A stretch of 64,000 nt of DNA from Alloalcanivorax xenomutans. GTDB lineage: Bacteria > Pseudomonadota > Gammaproteobacteria > Pseudomonadales > Alcanivoracaceae. The translations under genes and the position numbers were made by a program. Shown here piece by piece: positions 74 to 53,722 of the stretch. The first letter of the stretch is position 1; each line of letters begins with the position of its first letter. The stretch is taken from contig NZ_OBMO01000015.1 of assembly GCF_900217905.1 (NCBI RefSeq), positions 1-64,000 on the forward strand. The letters run 5' to 3'. The notes beneath the pieces were generated by a model. The model searched no databases. It was not told the origin of the DNA and saw only the letters and a program-made list of their open reading frames with translations.

Positions 74-180
74 TCTCCAACATAGAATCTCCCACAGCGG
101 CCTCGTAGCCACCTCCGAATTTGTGTCTTCAACGCCAGAAAACACGTTATGGTAAGGACTCCACTGAGCAAGGAATCACC

Positions 181-930
181 ATGGCCGACACCACCGCTAT
201 CTCCGAGTCCAACCGGCAACCCACACTGGCCGTTCTGATCGACGCGGACAACACACCACCGGCCATCGTCGAGGGCCTGTTCGAGGAGATCGCCAAATAC
301 GGCACCGCCACCATCAAGCGCATCTACGGTGACTGGACCCAGCCCAACCTGGGCGGCTGGAAGAAAGTGCTGCTGGACCATTCGATTCAGCCGGTGCAGC
401 AGTTCGCCTATACCACGGGCAAGAACGCCACCGACAGTTCGCTAATCATCGATGCCATGGATCTGCTCTACACCCGGGAACTGGATGGGTTCTGCCTGGT
501 TTCCAGCGACAGCGATTTCACCCGGCTGGCGGCCCGATTACGGGAAGCCGGCCTCACCGTCTATGGCTTCGGCGAACAGAAGACCCCCAAACCGCTGGTG
601 GCCGCTTGCGATAAATTCATCTACACCGAGATTCTGCGCGCGGACGACGATGGCGCCGCCAGCAAGGGCGGCAAAGCCGGCAAGGACAAAACCAGCGGCA
701 ACACGCCGCCTCTGAAGTTTATCGCCCGGGTCATCGACGATGTCTCGGGAGAAGACGACTGGGCCCACCTGGGAGTGCTTGGACAGAACCTGAGCCAGCG
801 CCGCCCGGAGTTCGACACGCGGCTCTACGGCTTTCGCAAACTGAGCGAGCTGCTCAATGCCCAGACCGGCCACTTCGAGCTGAAGAAAGGGGAAAACGGC
901 GGACTGTGGGTTAAGAACAAGAACGGGTGA
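181..930 (+). CDS. NYN-domain ribonuclease-like protein with C-terminal LOTUS/OST-HTH domain
   Basis: The 249-residue soluble protein has an N-terminal NYN (PIN-like) nuclease fold. The acidic motif LIDADN lies near residues 19-24, a conserved Asp pair is in DSSLIIDAMDLLY near 85-97, and SSDSDF is near 108-113. These are the metal-binding acidic positions of the LabA/limkain-b1 family. A charged Gly/Lys linker (about 157-175) leads to a winged-helix region at about 178-245 of the OST-HTH/LOTUS type, which binds RNA in eukaryotic relatives. An upstream in-frame codon exists at 121, but the ATG at 181 starts the conserved part and matches the family N-terminus. RNase activity is inferred from the fold; substrate and physiological role are unknown. 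The gene stands alone and converges on the TRAP operon. Confidence 0.85.
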   Translation: MADTTAISESNRQPTLAVLIDADNTPPAIVEGLFEEIAKYGTATIKRIYGDWTQPNLGGWKKVLLDHSIQPVQQFAYTTGKNATDSSLIIDAMDLLYTRELDGFCLVSSDSDFTRLAARLREAGLTVYGFGEQKTPKPLVAACDKFIYTEILRADDDGAASKGGKAGKDKTSGNTPPLKFIARVIDDVSGEDDWAHLGVLGQNLSQRRPEFDTRLYGFRKLSELLNAQTGHFELKKGENGGLWVKNKNG

Positions 931-1034: not shown

Positions 1035-1072
1035 CTGAGTGCTGATTCGAAGCGAACGGCTTCAGAATTCGT

Positions 1073-1182
1073 GGAGAGTTGGCGGGCAGCGTTCCAGGAC
1101 CGTGTTTGGCCAGGGAAGGCCAAACCCGAGCCCACATGGATGTGCTTGTAGCGTGTCCTGGAACGCTGCCCGCCGACTCTCC
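1073..1182. repeat. 110-bp palindromic intergenic element, copy A
   Basis: The arms at 1073-1100 and 1155-1182 are 28 nt each and complementary except for one T opposite G, which could pair as G-U in RNA. The 54-nt centre contains a second perfect 8-bp hairpin (GTTTGGCC at 1104-1111 with GGCCAAAC at 1118-1125, loop AGGGAA) and a small CACAT/ATGTG palindrome at 1133-1144. A copy of the same length and organisation lies at 25715-25824, with only one difference in the centre. It sits between the convergent NYN and TRAP genes, so it could act as a transcription end, but its size and conserved centre are unusual for a simple terminator. I do not recognise a named family. Confidence 0.85.
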
Positions 1183-1211
1183 TCACCTGGCAAGAGGCTC
1201 CAGATCCCCTC

Positions 1212-2501
1212 CTATCGAACCAGCCAGAGACTCAATTCCGGCACATAGGTAATCAGCAGCAGCGCGATGATCAGCACCAGCATGAACGGCAGCGTGGCCC
1301 GGAACAGTTCGGTGATCGACTTGCGGAACCGGTAGCTGGCGATGAACAGATTCATCCCCACCGGCGGCGTGATGTAGCCGATCTGCATGTTGGCGACAAA
1401 GATGATACCCAGGTGTACCGGATCAATGCCGTAGCGCAACGCCACCGGCAGGATCAACGGCACCATGATCACCAGAGCGGCGAAGATATCCAGCAAGGCG
1501 CCGAGCAACAGCAACAGAATGTTAAGCAAAATCAAAAACGCGAGCTTACTCTGTACGTGAGTCTGGATGAAGGCGAACAAATGCTCTGGCACGCCGGCAT
1601 ACACCAGATAGTCGGCGAAAGCCTGGGCCACCGCCAGAATCAGCAGGATCCCCCCCACCATGACCATGGCTTCACGGGTCAAACCCGGCAGCCGGCGCAG
1701 CGGAATCTCCCGGTACAGCACCACTTCCGCCAGCAACACATAAAGCGCGGTGACCGCCGCCGCCTCGCTCACCACCAGGAAGCCGGAGAAGATACCGCCG
1801 AGCACCACCAGCGGCAGCGGCAATTCCCAACGCGCATCCCACAACGCCTGCCCCAGCTCCCGCGCGTTGAACGGCTGCCGCGGCAACGGATCGGCGCGAT
1901 TGACCCACACGCAATAGCCGTACAGCAATACCACCATCAGTAGCGCCGGCCCCACCCCGGCCAGGTACAGATCGACGATTTCCACCGGCGGCATGGTCAG
2001 TTGCTGTGACAACTGCTGAGCGATGATGCCATAGATCAACAACGGCACCGACGGCACCAACAGCAACCCCAGACTGCCGGACGAAGTTACCAGCCCAAGA
2101 CTGAAACGCTGCGGATAACCGGCCTTGACCAAAGCCGGCAGCAACAGCGCGCCCAGCGCCACGATGGTGACACCGGAGCCGCCGGTAAGCGCGGTGAAGA
2201 AAGCACAGGCCACCAATGCCACGAAAGCCATGCCGCCGGGCATCCAGCCGAACGCGGCCTGGCTGAGACGGACCAGGCGATCGGCGGTACGCGATTCACT
2301 GAGCAGAAAACCGGCGAAAGTGAACAGCGGCAGCGCCATCAGCACCACCGAATCGGACAGCTGGTAAATATCGATGTGGAGCACCGACAGCGGCGTCTCC
2401 TGGGTGAAGAAACCGATGGCGGCCGCGGCCAGCAGGATGGCGAACAACGGCGCGCCCATCAACGCCAGCACGATCAACAGAACAATGGCGGCGATAATCA
2501 T
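1212..2501 (-). CDS. TRAP transporter large permease subunit (DctM family)
   Basis: The 429-residue integral membrane protein has about 12 hydrophobic segments and is the Na+/H+-coupled channel component of a tripartite ATP-independent periplasmic transporter. Family landmarks include the early SDSVVLMALPLFTFAGFLLS region, the glycine-rich GGSGVTIVALGALLLPALVKAGY stretch and the C-terminal GYITPPVGMNLFIAS motif typical of DctM. The ATG at 2501 overlaps the stop of the small permease by 4 bp (ATGA), so translation is probably coupled. The frame stays open further upstream, but that extension only reads through the small-permease gene and is not hydrophobic. This is the last gene of the four-gene operon. 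Confidence 0.95.
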   Translation of the reverse strand: MIIAAIVLLIVLALMGAPLFAILLAAAAIGFFTQETPLSVLHIDIYQLSDSVVLMALPLFTFAGFLLSESRTADRLVRLSQAAFGWMPGGMAFVALVACAFFTALTGGSGVTIVALGALLLPALVKAGYPQRFSLGLVTSSGSLGLLLVPSVPLLIYGIIAQQLSQQLTMPPVEIVDLYLAGVGPALLMVVLLYGYCVWVNRADPLPRQPFNARELGQALWDARWELPLPLVVLGGIFSGFLVVSEAAAVTALYVLLAEVVLYREIPLRRLPGLTREAMVMVGGILLILAVAQAFADYLVYAGVPEHLFAFIQTHVQSKLAFLILLNILLLLLGALLDIFAALVIMVPLILPVALRYGIDPVHLGIIFVANMQIGYITPPVGMNLFIASYRFRKSITELFRATLPFMLVLIIALLLITYVPELSLWLVR

Positions 2502-2992
2502 CCCAGCGGCTCCCGCATGCAGGGCCGGCGCCCACCCAGGCCAAGCACGAACAGCACCAGGTAACGCAGCGCCATGACGCTGAAACCGAACGGAATGATC
2601 ACCTGCGGCACCCAGCTGGGGATACCGGCAAAGGCGATCTCGCCGTACTGATATTCCTCGATCACGAAACCAATGCTGTACCAGGCCACCAGGGTACAGA
2701 TGGCGGCGGTGAACAGATCCACCGTGCCAGTAATCCAGGGTTGGAAGGACTTCGGCAGCCACTGTCCCAGCAGATCGATACGGATGTGCTCGTCACGGCG
2801 CGAGGCGATCATGGCGCCGAGCAAGCCGATCCACAGCACCGCGTTACGCAGCAGTGGCTCCACCCATATCAGACTGACACCGGCCATGTTGCGCAGCCCG
2901 ATTTGCACCACCGCCAACAGCACCATGCCCAACAAAATGGCCACGATCAGACCATCTTCCAGGCGGTGCAACCAGGACAGCAGGCGCCGCAT
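2498..2992 (-). CDS. TRAP transporter small permease subunit (DctQ family)
   Basis: The 164-residue protein has four predicted membrane segments, at roughly residues 12-32, 45-65, 87-107 and 130-150. The family motif NAVLWIGLLGAMIASRRDEHIRIDLL is in the middle. DctQ subunits pair with DctM to form the membrane complex that receives substrate from the periplasmic binding protein. The gene shares one base with the stop of the binding-protein gene upstream and overlaps the large permease by 4 bp, so the three form one transcriptional unit. Confidence 0.95.
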   Translation of the reverse strand: MRRLLSWLHRLEDGLIVAILLGMVLLAVVQIGLRNMAGVSLIWVEPLLRNAVLWIGLLGAMIASRRDEHIRIDLLGQWLPKSFQPWITGTVDLFTAAICTLVAWYSIGFVIEEYQYGEIAFAGIPSWVPQVIIPFGFSVMALRYLVLFVLGLGGRRPCMREPLG

Positions 2993-7397: not shown

Positions 7398-7545
7398 AAA
7401 ACAATCCTCACTGAATGGTCGCCGGCTATTCTAGCCCAGAGGGCAAGTGCGGTCCCAGAGTTAGCTGGCACGCTGACTTGGAGAGATAAATTCGCACTGT
7501 ATTCGCTGCCCAGGCGGCTTTCCACCGACCTGACCACGAAGCCTC

Positions 7546-7613
7546 TGTGGGAGCCTGCCTGCAAGCGAATGGGCTTCCGGACGCCGAGATTCGCTTGCAG
7601 GCAAGCTCCCACA
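7546..7613. repeat. REP-like inverted repeat, GCAAGCGAAT subtype
   Basis: The two 25-nt arms at 7546-7570 and 7589-7613 are complementary except for one position. They begin TGTGGGAGC and end GCAAGCGAAT, with an 18-nt loop between. The unit lies between olsA (ends 7638) and the efpL start (7397), both leftward. It could terminate or stabilise the olsBA transcript. The remaining 150 bp of this gap shows no gene. Confidence 0.8.
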
Positions 7614-7637
7614 ACGGCATCCAGGTTTCCGCGAGAA

Positions 7638-20429: not shown

Positions 20430-20487
20430 CGCCGGAGCAAACCAAGCTGGCACGCCTTCGCTACTAAAGCGGCTTCCACGGAACCAT

Positions 20488-20515
20488 TGTGGGAGCTTGC
20501 CGGCAAGCTCCCACA
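20488..20515. repeat. REP-like perfect palindrome
   Basis: A perfect 28-nt palindrome with 14-nt arms starting TGTGGGAGCTTGCC is followed by the common CAGCGGCTTCGTGGCC tail. It is the minimal form of the REP-like family, lacking the CGAAT spacer ends. It lies between the small membrane protein gene and the convergent SDR gene and is a plausible transcription stop for both. Confidence 0.75.
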
Positions 20516-20587
20516 GCGGCTTCGTGGCCATCTCTCAATTCATGTGCGGCCCCAGGGAACAGCAGTAACTCATGGACCGCATTCTTG

Positions 20588-25011: not shown

Positions 25012-25641
25012 TCACGGCGCGCCGCCCAGACCTTCCCACGCCACCGCCGCGGCCAGCAGAATCAAGGCCGCGCCGGCGCCCCGTTCCACCCAGGCCAGCC
25101 GGCGCCCGAACACGCTCATCCAGCGTGGCTGAGCCGCCAGCCACGCCACCAGCAGGTCCCAACCCAGCACCACGGTCACCATCCACACCGCATAGCCCAA
25201 TTGGATCGTCAAAGTACTGCCATTGACCGCCAGAAGTGAAAACAGGCTGGCGTAGAACAAGGCGTTCTTTGGGTTGAGAATGGCCGAGGCGAAGCCCATG
25301 CCCAGGCCGCGCAAATGGCCGCCGGTACCGGCCACGGACCGCGGCGCCACCGGCAGACTCAGGGGCGCGGCCGAGCGGATAAGACGAACGCCAAGGTAAA
25401 ACAGGTAACCGGATCCGGCCCACAACACCGCCACGAACAGAGGGCTTCCCGGCCTTAGCACCGAGAAGCCCGCCAGCGCCAGGGCAATGAAGACACCGTT
25501 GGCCAGGGCCACCCCCAGGCACACACCGGCGGCACTGCGCCAGCCCTCCACCAGGGCACTACGCAGAATCAAAAAGAAATCCGGACCGGGGCTGAGCAAC
25601 GCCAGGAAATGAGCGCCGGCCACCATCAGGAACTGTTCCAA
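25012..25641 (-). CDS. LysE/RhtB family amino-acid exporter
   Basis: The 209-residue inner-membrane protein has about six helices and the family motif LLALSPGPDFF-like LALLSPGPDFFLILRSAL at the start. ILNPKNALFYASLF follows in the middle. The start is set at TTG 25641 because it lies 7 nt after GGGAGG and gives the family N-terminus (MEQFLMVAGAHFL). No ATG in the family position exists; the next ATG, at codon 6, would trim the first helix. LysE/RhtB proteins export amino acids or their derivatives. The AraC regulator gene upstream on the same strand may control it. Confidence 0.9.
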   Translation of the reverse strand: MEQFLMVAGAHFLALLSPGPDFFLILRSALVEGWRSAAGVCLGVALANGVFIALALAGFSVLRPGSPLFVAVLWAGSGYLFYLGVRLIRSAAPLSLPVAPRSVAGTGGHLRGLGMGFASAILNPKNALFYASLFSLLAVNGSTLTIQLGYAVWMVTVVLGWDLLVAWLAAQPRWMSVFGRRLAWVERGAGAALILLAAAVAWEGLGGAP

Positions 25642-25714
25642 TACATCACCTCCCACCAACAGGGAGGCACATGCTAGCGGCGCGGAGAGCGGGCGGGATT
25701 GTAGAAAATTGCGA

Positions 25715-25824
25715 GGAGAGCCGGCGGGCAGCGTTCCAGGACCGTGTTTGGCCAGGGAAGGCCAAACCCGAGCCCACATGGACGTGCTTGTAGCGTGTCC
25801 TGGAACGCTGACCGTCGGCTCTCC
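25715..25824. repeat. 110-bp palindromic intergenic element, copy B
   Basis: The arms at 25715-25742 and 25797-25824 are 28 nt each with two mismatches. The centre differs from copy A (1073-1182) at one base (GGACGTG instead of GGATGTG). In the arms the T-A pair of copy A's GAGT/ACTC is replaced by a C-G pair (GAGC/GCTC), a paired change that keeps the stem. It lies between lysE and the AraC-type gene, both leftward, so it could end the regulator transcript. Confidence 0.85.
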
Positions 25825-25881
25825 TCTCCTGGCAAGCGGCACCCTGACAGGAAAGGACTGCGATGTCCCGGCTCCCGACGG

Positions 25882-26670
25882 TCAGCCGTCCACGGCCACC
25901 CGCCGGTATTGCCCCGGTGTCGCCGCCACCCGTTCCTTGAACGCCCGCTGGAAATGGCTCTGGTCGGTAAACCCCAATGTCTGTGCCACATCCGCTGGCG
26001 CCAGCCCGGCCCGCAACAAGGCCCGGGCACGGTCTATGCGCTGGTCCAGCCCATAGGCGTGGGGTGTCAGGCCCAAATGGCGGCGAAAGCGGCGGATCAG
26101 CTGATAGCGGCTGAGGCCGTTGGCGGCGGCCAGATCGTCCAGCGGAATCGTCTGGTCGGCGTCACGCAATGCCCGGCGCGCGGCCTCCAGCTCTCCGGGT
26201 TCACCGGTTTGTTTCCCTTCCAGAGGTTCGCCGCGCCACCATTGAGCGCGCAGGAAACCGGTCAGGTGACGCTCCTTGACCGCCGGCGAAGCAGCGGAGA
26301 ACAGACATCGATTCAGCTTGCAGAAAGCGGCATAGGCCACCGGGTCCCGGCCCACCTCCACCCGTCGCGGCGGCATCTCCCCCAGAACCCGCCCGAGCCA
26401 GCGCGGATCCAGATAGAGCATCTGGTAACTCCAGTCTCCGCCGGCGGCCGGATTGCAGGCGTGCACCTGTTCATCGGGAATACTGATCAAGGTGCCAGGC
26501 AACAGAGCGCGGCCGACGCCGAGACTGGTGAAGCGGCTGCGCCCGCCGTCCACCACCCCGATGGACCAGGTGCGATGGCTGTGGGCGCGGTAGCAGGCGC
26601 GACTGCGACAGGCCCGGCGGCTCTCCACGAACGGCAGCGCCGGGTCATGCCAGAATTGAGCGGGGGACAT
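25882..26670 (-). CDS. AraC family transcriptional regulator
   Basis: The 262-residue regulator has an N-terminal cupin-like ligand domain (about 1-140, with HSHRTWSIGVVDGG) and a C-terminal pair of helix-turn-helix motifs (about 165-260). The HTH part includes LAAANGLSRYQLIRRFRRHLGLTPHAYGLDQRIDRARALL and the family signature VAQTLGFTDQSHFQRAFKERVAATPGQYR. It probably controls the LysE-type exporter 240 bp downstream on the same strand; this pairing is common, but the effector is unknown. The next gene upstream, the cyclase, is 36 bp away in the same direction and could be part of the same transcript. Confidence 0.9.
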   Translation of the reverse strand: MSPAQFWHDPALPFVESRRACRSRACYRAHSHRTWSIGVVDGGRSRFTSLGVGRALLPGTLISIPDEQVHACNPAAGGDWSYQMLYLDPRWLGRVLGEMPPRRVEVGRDPVAYAAFCKLNRCLFSAASPAVKERHLTGFLRAQWWRGEPLEGKQTGEPGELEAARRALRDADQTIPLDDLAAANGLSRYQLIRRFRRHLGLTPHAYGLDQRIDRARALLRAGLAPADVAQTLGFTDQSHFQRAFKERVAATPGQYRRVAVDG

Positions 26671-33544: not shown

Positions 33545-33611
33545 ATTCGCGACCAAGCTCGCTCCCACAGCGACTTCGTAGCCCTCTGTGGGAGCAAGCT
33601 TGCTCGCGAAT
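33545..33611. repeat. REP-like inverted repeat, TTGCTCGCGAAT subtype
   Basis: The arms at 33545-33570 and 33586-33611 (26 nt each) are complementary with two mismatches. They end in ATTCGCGA/TCGCGAAT. The spacer carries the family tail CGACTTCGTAGCC. It sits in the 95-bp gap between the convergent LysR and MFS genes, where it can serve both as a 3'-end structure. Confidence 0.8.
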
Positions 33612-53566: not shown

Positions 53567-53590
53567 AAAAACCGGTGGAGCCGCCCGCCG

Positions 53591-53665
53591 CTGCGGGAGC
53601 TTGCCTGCAAGCGAATTCTCGAATTCAGGGCCCGAGTCCATTCGCTTGCAGGCAAGCTCCCACAG
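53591..53665. repeat. REP-like inverted repeat, GCAAGCGAAT subtype
   Basis: The 26-nt arms at 53591-53616 and 53640-53665 have one mismatch and start CTGCGGGAGC/end CTCCCACAG. They share the GCAAGCGAAT end with the unit at 7546-7613, and the family tail CGACTTCGTCAGC follows. The unit lies just after the phospholipase-D-like gene and ahead of the convergent small membrane protein gene. Confidence 0.8.
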
Positions 53666-53722
53666 CGACTTCGTCAGCTCTGAATTCTTGTCTTGAAGGC
53701 CACATCGGCAATCCGTATTTCT

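Follow-up and report, generated by a model that had tools for sequence, protein, structure and literature searches.

An intergenic repeat of Alloalcanivorax xenomutans with two GGA hairpin loops in a constant core: a candidate CsrA-binding element with relatives in many Gammaproteobacteria

Results

Genes and features at the two copies in the window

The window, i.e. the whole stretch of 64,000 nucleotides of A. xenomutans analyzed here, harbors two copies (A and B) of a long palindromic element. The elements, their parts and the adjacent genes are as follows:

121-930, plus strand: gene of a protein with NYN domain and OST-HTH/LOTUS, left of copy A, converging
1070-1201, plus strand: block common to copies A and B, slightly exceeding the palindrome (pairwise match)
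1073-1182, plus strand (ANGGA strand): copy A, whole palindromic element (arm and fold analysis; 117.5 bits with the covariance model R1)
1073-1096, plus strand: left outer arm of copy A, pairing with 1159-1182, variable between subfamilies (arm comparison)
1097-1158, plus strand: conserved 62-nt core of copy A with two hairpins (copy comparison)
1104-1125, plus strand: hairpin 1 of copy A, loop octamer CAGGGAAG at 1111-1118 (hairpin and loop statistics)
1127-1148, plus strand: hairpin 2 of copy A, loop octamer CATGGATG at 1135-1142 (fold and loop statistics)
1159-1182, plus strand: right outer arm of copy A (arm comparison)
1212-2762, minus strand: gene of TRAP transporter DctM (PF06808), right of copy A, converging, stop about 30 nt from the element
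25012-25842, minus strand: LysE-type ORF, mechanically listed, left of copy B and overlapping it
25715-25824, plus strand: copy B, whole element, core at 25739-25800, first loop octamer from 25753
25882-26670, minus strand: gene of an AraC-type regulator, right of copy B, stop 57 nt from the element

Copy A is located between converging genes, copy B between two genes of the minus strand, downstream of the AraC-type regulator and adjoining the start of the LysE-type gene. As the Pfam match of the LysE-type product begins only at residue 81, its true start probably lies left of copy B. Mechanically called ORFs overlap both copies (911-1186 on the minus strand at copy A; 25012-25842 on the minus strand and others at copy B), none of which was taken as evidence of coding. 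A consensus scan of positions 900-1300 around copy A disclosed no promoter- or terminator-like site.

The window also contains a separate REP-like family (GTGGGAGC...GCAAGCGAAT) at 7541-7621, 20483-20545, 33545-33611 and 53587-53672, and a similar sequence resides beside copy A at about 966-1025. In a different genome (locus L311, G006:C59), a tandem repeat of the heptamer AATCCTG lies beside the 3′ end of the DctM gene.

An earlier note on this DNA had described copy A as a 110-bp palindrome, which was confirmed by our analysis. Its arms (1073-1100 and 1155-1182) are 28 nt long, form 27 of 28 pairs (96%) and enclose 54 nt. Folded as RNA, copy A gave -83.4 kcal/mol on the plus strand and -77.6 on the minus strand (z -11.5 and -10.3), and none of 200 shuffled sequences folded as well. 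The perfect 8-bp hairpin and the smaller palindrome ascribed to the center could both be located, the former at 1104-1111/1118-1125 (GTTTGGCC/GGCCAAAC) and the latter, CAC-ATGGAT-GTG, at 1133-1144. Hairpin 2 of copy A has the lower stem CGAG/CTTG and the upper stem CAC/GTG. Likewise, the second copy of identical length 24.6 kb away was found, as copy B, to be 95% identical; the similarity runs 3 bp to the left and 19 bp to the right beyond the ends given before, since the two copies have a block of 132 bp in common (1070-1201 and 25712-25843; 92% identity). Taken alone, the inner hairpin pattern is weak evidence, because its two occurrences in the window (up to three mismatches allowed; 0.52 expected) were also reached by 9 of 100 shuffles. 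Two CANGGANG octamers at the spacing of the element occurred twice in the window, compared to 0.04 times per mononucleotide-shuffled window.

Copy number and distribution

A DNA search of the own genome (G000; 4.35 Mb, 47 contigs) yielded seven near-full-length copies with at least 90% identity, in addition to diverged ones. The covariance model search proposed in the earlier note revealed many copies in the genome, the genus, the order and the class. Our model R1 was built from 28 genus-level elements and detected in the own genome at least 22 full-length sense copies among the 27 matches listed, with 150 of 2717 first-look candidates scored; the five matches not counted were two re-hits on the antisense strand, two short forms lacking the core and a single partial match. 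Two outcomes had been named as fatal to the proposal, the lack of further copies and copies explained by a segmental duplication that includes flanking DNA. Neither was observed: copies abound in this genome and in relatives, and the flanks differ between copies.

Exact matches to the inner hairpin were present in genomes named Alloalcanivorax mobilis and A. balearicus and in two Alcanivorax sp. records. R1 matched all 13 genomes of the genus (12 by DNA search alone), 21 of 46 of the family, 72 of 194 of the order (E 0.01), 66 of 369 of the class (E 1e-6) and 16 of 299 of the phylum (E 1e-7), all 16 being members of the own class; the family, order, class and phylum samples overlap in part. 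Within the family the distribution was patchy, with matches in none of 17 genomes of genus g2, four of seven of g4 and all three of g7. As 10 to 19 candidates per genome were scored in the order, class and phylum searches, a limit that many genomes reached, copy numbers obtained there are minimum values. R1 also rewards a long stem by itself, for which reason sequences were read wherever possible, and all 19 class-level loci fetched exhibited two GGA loops in the core. Within the genus, close copies recognizable by DNA match were few and unevenly distributed over the species. We concluded that the element is a mobile repeat with about two dozen scattered copies in its own genome and relatives across many Gammaproteobacteria.

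Carriage by phages or plasmids was considered too and rejected on the few queries tried, by which other members could be missed. Plasmids gave no match to the window element (E 1e-5) or to the L118 element (E 0.01), phages none to the L109 core, and viral contigs none to one exact core pattern.

A constant core with two GGA loops on variable arms

While the palindrome described before is real, the attention paid to its arms fell on the variable part. The arms differ between subfamilies, and those of different copies can be unrelated in sequence, yet they stay complementary, and it is the 62-nt core (1097-1158 in the window), with its two GGA loops, that is constant. Only the core may be conserved because the arms may take many sequences provided they pair. 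A role of the arms as a variable guide sequence was considered and dropped; the arms pair with one another. Both loops typically read C-A-N-G-G-A-N-G, and CANGGANG was found in both loops of all 28 genus-level elements. For loop statistics we used 233 non-identical elements from genus to order level, which remained of 258 alignment rows (A3, A4, A5) after de-duplication. GGA occupied both loop positions in 230 of them, at a distance of 22-25 nt in all but one (229/230). In hairpin 2 of these 230, the fixed letters were nearly invariant (C 229, A 229, GGA 230, G 229), and both N positions took all four letters. The first loop A of hairpin 1 was replaced by C in 44 of 230. Strict CANGGANG octamers occurred twice in 185 of the 233 elements, once in 47 and not at all in one; many one-octamer elements belong to f16 genomes, where hairpin 1 is short of one loop base and keeps its GGA. 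Altered loops were also seen in some copies of the own genome (L138, with GGG in the second loop, and L149). The loop conservation is in part due to the way the elements were collected, as R1 itself holds GGA loops; independent support comes from YPAL and TwoAYGGAY (see below), which were described by others with the same loops.

In genera g4 and g7, hairpin 1 of elements such as L093 and L096 reads GTGTGAGGC-loop-GCCGAACAC; the GA/GA step within it could represent tandem sheared G-A pairs.

An intergenic palindrome with dispersed copies in its own genome might also be a site of chromosome organization or of a nucleoid protein, since REP and BIME sequences are intergenic dispersed palindromes. 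The conserved features are, however, single-strand loops with free N positions instead of a duplex motif, closely similar copies are scarce and unevenly spread among species of the genus, and nothing found in this analysis supports such a role, which we regard as very improbable.

Covariation and the folding strand

The suggestion that the element is a structured RNA was borne out as far as structure is concerned, with very strong covariation in two sets. In the genus set, 31 of 45 pairs were double-changed and the covariation amounted to 0.487, as against 0.139 in shuffled alignments; none of 500 shuffles reached it. In 90 distinct rows from order and family, 42 of 45 pairs were double-changed and the covariation rose to 0.804 (shuffled, 0.174), in an alignment that was fitted to R1 and hence leans towards the model. 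In this set, 3 of 500 shuffles came up to the real alignment in one of five measures, that of further pair types. Rows of related elements are not independent. The figures of both sets understate the lower stem of hairpin 2, which R1 places one column off. Covariation of the arms is in itself no proof of an RNA, because correction of the palindrome at the DNA level can keep arms perfect. The minimum free energy fold placed both GGA entirely within hairpin loops in no more than 150 of 230 elements.

The strands can be told apart, since the complement of a G-U pair is an A-C mismatch. Read on the ANGGA strand, the outer arms contained 140 G-U and 45 A-C oppositions, besides 5060 Watson-Crick pairs and 168 others. 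A G-U excess was observed in 91 elements and an A-C excess in 20, and G-U prevailed in six of seven source groups, the group of the f1 genera g4 and g7 being reversed (3 versus 5). Counted by genome, 12 of 18 had more G-U, one more A-C, and five were tied. The G-U excess thus speaks for folding of the ANGGA strand, although it could alternatively stem from strand-biased mutation. The ANGGA strand also folded better in 193 of 230 elements, which may in part be due to base composition.

Gain, loss and inversion of copies

The idea of a mobile element was corroborated by copies that are dispersed and come and go, and the insertion-site polymorphism that the earlier note had wished to see counted was found in three genomes. 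The gene beside copy A is present in all 13 genomes of the genus. In G002, G001 and G012 the gene pair is recognizable without the element, G002 having a short spacer at this site and the other two a different repeat-like sequence. Copy B is absent from G001 and G002, where a remnant has stayed that agrees with the left arm in 17 of its first 18 nt, so that its absence looks like a deletion; in G012 no trace of it was seen in the stretch read. At the element-free sites the flanks differ or hold the arm-like remnant, and no target duplication is readable.

At one orthologous site (L073 and L074) the core is inverted between sister genomes. The L073 flanks match the reverse complement of the L074 flanks with scores of 998 and 791, versus 25 and 25, and the flank compared for L104 and L105 agrees with an inversion (955 versus 25). 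Probably, the inverted arms let the core flip.

Two short palindromes without the core, in which arms of this type enclose a small loop, reside in the own genome (G000:C38:94784-94853 and G000:C12:90253-90319), and adjacent half-matches suggest, by match pattern only, similar short forms in G001, G002 and G012. Insertion of the core into ready-made palindromes seems the less likely explanation for them: they retain the outer ends of the core and the subfamily arms, and therefore look more like internal deletions.

These short forms, the dispersed copies in subfamilies with common flanks, the site polymorphism at copies A and B and the composite pairs of g4 genomes, whose gaps are near-constant (see below), would all suit a transposable repeat acting as DNA only, similar to a MITE, whose loops mark hairpins for a single-strand-DNA transposase and which has no role as RNA. 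Such a transposase would be expected to need the terminal arms, yet these are the variable part, conserved only within subfamilies. Moreover, the fixed and free loop positions agree with a CsrA site (see Discussion), and the G-U excess is strand-specific. We thus consider a purely DNA-borne role quite improbable, and retain the reading of a mobile repeat whose RNA would be bound.

Gene context

A crude ORF caller served to count the gene context of 213 of the 233 elements; 20 with a short locus or an element near its end were excluded. Stop codons of converging genes within 100 nt were more frequent on the 3′ side of the element (102) than on its 5′ side (44), and hence neighboring mRNAs often carry the complement, the UCC strand. 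The median distance between the converging stop and the 3′ end of the element was 43.5 nt (128 cases). Much of this bias is supplied by close pairs of elements: of 62 such pairs, 52 were oriented (-)(+), one (+)(-), one (++) and eight (--). Among 102 unpaired elements, the two tandem orientations were almost balanced, 30 being antisense and 26 sense to the upstream gene. A (-)(+) pair read from either direction gives an RNA with one ANGGA copy, which is in the distal place.

In g4 genomes, L254, L256, L258-L264 and L266 consist of two different elements each, arranged (-)(+) with gaps near 100 bp, as if these pairs had multiplied as one composite unit. At L078/L108 (G003:C1, about 94416-95660), six elements follow one another in tandem, repeating every 227 bp or so, and each unit also carries a REP-like GGCTGAAGCCGCTCCTACA stretch.

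The clustering of stops next to the 3′ end and the prevailing (-)(+) orientation of pairs would be explained if the element served on the other strand, i.e. if the complement hairpin in the adjacent mRNA protected its 3′ end or stopped the polymerase and the loops were conserved for some other reason. In line with this, Ysr224 (see below), the sole branch for which RNA-seq detection was seen, is modelled on the UCC strand. The flank profiles on either side (233 and 230 flanks), however, contained no T-run and copy A no terminator-like site, by which an intrinsic terminator (a hairpin followed by a T-run) was rejected. Further arguments against a 3′-end element are the excess of G-U over A-C on the ANGGA strand and the core inversion between sister genomes, according to which a fixed orientation is not needed at that site. 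Finally, we know of no reader of C-NUCCNU-G loops. On balance we judge a function of the complementary strand unlikely, albeit less so than a role as DNA only, and give preference to a function of the ANGGA strand.

Relationship to known RNAs and repeats

Rfam searches with the window copy produced chance-like matches only, and those with 20 relatives no known family save weak Ysr224 and microRNA matches. Judged from the common core, loops and spacing and from covariance-model matches, the window element is nevertheless homologous to TwoAYGGAY and YPAL, lying outside both curated boundaries.

One close match in architecture is the TwoAYGGAY RNA (RF01731; Weinberg et al. 2010, PMC2864571), which has a long closing stem, two adjacent hairpins and CANGGANG-type loops on the same strand; our elements likewise enclose a pair of hairpins with A-N-GGA-N loops in a single long stem. 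The two differ in that the TwoAYGGAY model comprises 168 positions, whereas the window element is shorter and GC-rich. RF01731 gave no match up to E 10 in the window at 900-1400 and none in G000 (83 of 217 candidates scored), scores thus staying below its cut-off of 43 bits; L293 attained 36.8 bits on the ANGGA strand, likewise below the cut-off. In 20 element-bearing genomes, 12 had a match up to E 10 and two passed the cut-off, the best score among the candidates scored being 55 bits (G416). Nineteen TwoAYGGAY places were compared by hand, namely all listed places of G503, G285, G144 and G009 and one of 32 in G136, which was included because it had been seen to coincide. Eleven of the 19 coincided with same-strand matches obtained by R1 or by DNA search, and the TwoAYGGAY model scores such places in each of the five genomes. 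The G416 places were not among the class-level R1 matches listed, for which 10 candidates had been scored there. R1 directly hit L319 (G416) and L320 (G304), the two that were fetched of 12 RF01731 places over the cut-off, on the same strand (E 4.9e-14 and 5.5e-11). TwoAYGGAY and CsrB belong to the same Rfam clan (CL00106).

With CsrB and the RsmX, RsmY and RsmZ sRNAs the element has GGA hairpin loops in common. Unlike these sRNAs, it contains two sites per unit and occurs as dispersed repeats, and neither the scan of 900-1300 at copy A nor the flank profiles revealed a promoter and intrinsic terminator of its own. REP/BIME, ERIC and MITE-like repeats resemble it as dispersed intergenic palindromes with inverted pairs but have conserved ends, where the element combines a constant core with variable arms.

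The second relative is the YPAL or RU-2 repeat of Yersinia, which is said to have been described by De Gregorio in 2006. Alignments of YPAL to relatives cover the core only, and in this region the two-loop core is present. In the published YPAL/RU-2 repeat (PMC2759123) the loops of this core are CAAGGATG and CATGGATG, at a distance of 24 nt, as well as CGAGCCTA and TTACGGCGT; like our element it is multicopy, intergenic and palindromic, unlike it 168 bp long with long imperfect arms of other sequence. Its insertion is reported to create target-site duplications of 3-26 bp (PMC2229807). The Rfam model Ysr224 (RF02770) represents the complementary strand with UCC loops, opposite to ANGGA. It gave complementary-strand matches to several elements below its cut-off, the value in the own genome being 29.9 bits against 70, and the length of about 168 bp and the Yersinia arms were lacking there. 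Several Ysr224 copies are reported to differ in expression in Yersinia ruckeri (PMC12112432), by which this branch is transcribed, and a survey counts the Ysr224 'sRNA' family as one of the 20 most prevalent in bacteria (PMC9029176). All in all, the family is almost certainly a diverged Alloalcanivorax branch of a known but scattered superfamily.

Literature searches found no paper on YPAL together with CsrA, none of six core strings, nothing relevant on Alcanivorax repeats and none on Halomonas or Marinobacter repeats. In Alcanivorax dieselolei, two CsrA-related sRNAs are reported (PMC9788540).

Discussion

The two loops suggest a protein of the CsrA/RsmA type as the reader of the ANGGA strand, CsrA being a global regulator. 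The binding consensus, as attributed to Schubert (2007) and Dubey (2005), is reportedly (A/U)CANGGANG(U/A) for RsmE and RUACARGGAUGU for CsrA. With this consensus the loops agree at fixed as well as at free positions, both in the window copies and in the whole set. A spacing of 22-25 nt between sites is within reach of one CsrA dimer. We therefore favor the reading of a mobile intergenic repeat that, as RNA of the ANGGA strand, is bound by a CsrA dimer, and assign to it a probability of roughly 0.6.

The distribution of csrA is consistent with this assumption. The own genome has the gene, as do 313 of 369 genomes of the class. Among class genomes of good quality, it was found in 54 of 55 element-positive and 226 of 259 element-negative ones (p=0.015, kinship ignored); with all qualities included, the numbers were 61 of 66 and 252 of 303 (p=0.06). 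Five of the 66 element-positive genomes had no csrA hit, four of which were less than 90% complete.

On the proposed mechanism, the ANGGA strand would be transcribed either as an antisense RNA or by read-through from a neighboring gene. Its complementary arms would then zip into a long rod with the two hairpins at its tip, each displaying a C-ANGGAN-G loop as a putative CsrA/RsmA site, and one dimer might clamp both predicted sites. Binding could alter stability, termination or translation of the carrier RNA. Least certain is the last step, by which dozens of copies jointly would form a spread-out CsrA sink; to such a network-wide role we give less credence than to the binding itself.

A wider proposal may be put forward tentatively, though we think it somewhat more apt to fail than to hold: TwoAYGGAY, YPAL/Ysr224 and dozens of unnamed repeats would constitute one superfamily, in which one ancient mobile RNA cassette carries ready-made two-site CsrA clamps, changes the wiring of the CsrA network through its insertions and burdens the cell with scattered CsrA-binding sites, its free arms and invertible core letting it land and work almost anywhere. 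Relative to the part of the literature that was searched, the present analysis adds the joining of the branches, their breadth, the constant core with its two sites between free arms, and the CsrA reading together with a test of the strand.

The element brings together an Rfam candidate motif, a mobile repeat of Yersinia and a prevalent 'sRNA' family under a single idea, that of a site for the CsrA dimer. Should only the structure hold, it would still be a clear example of arms of free sequence that carry a constant RNA-like core. If the CsrA reading is true, the target sets of CsrA could shift by insertion of repeats, and the number of repeats would matter for the amount of free CsrA. Genomes may thus be spreading ready-made CsrA sites between their genes.
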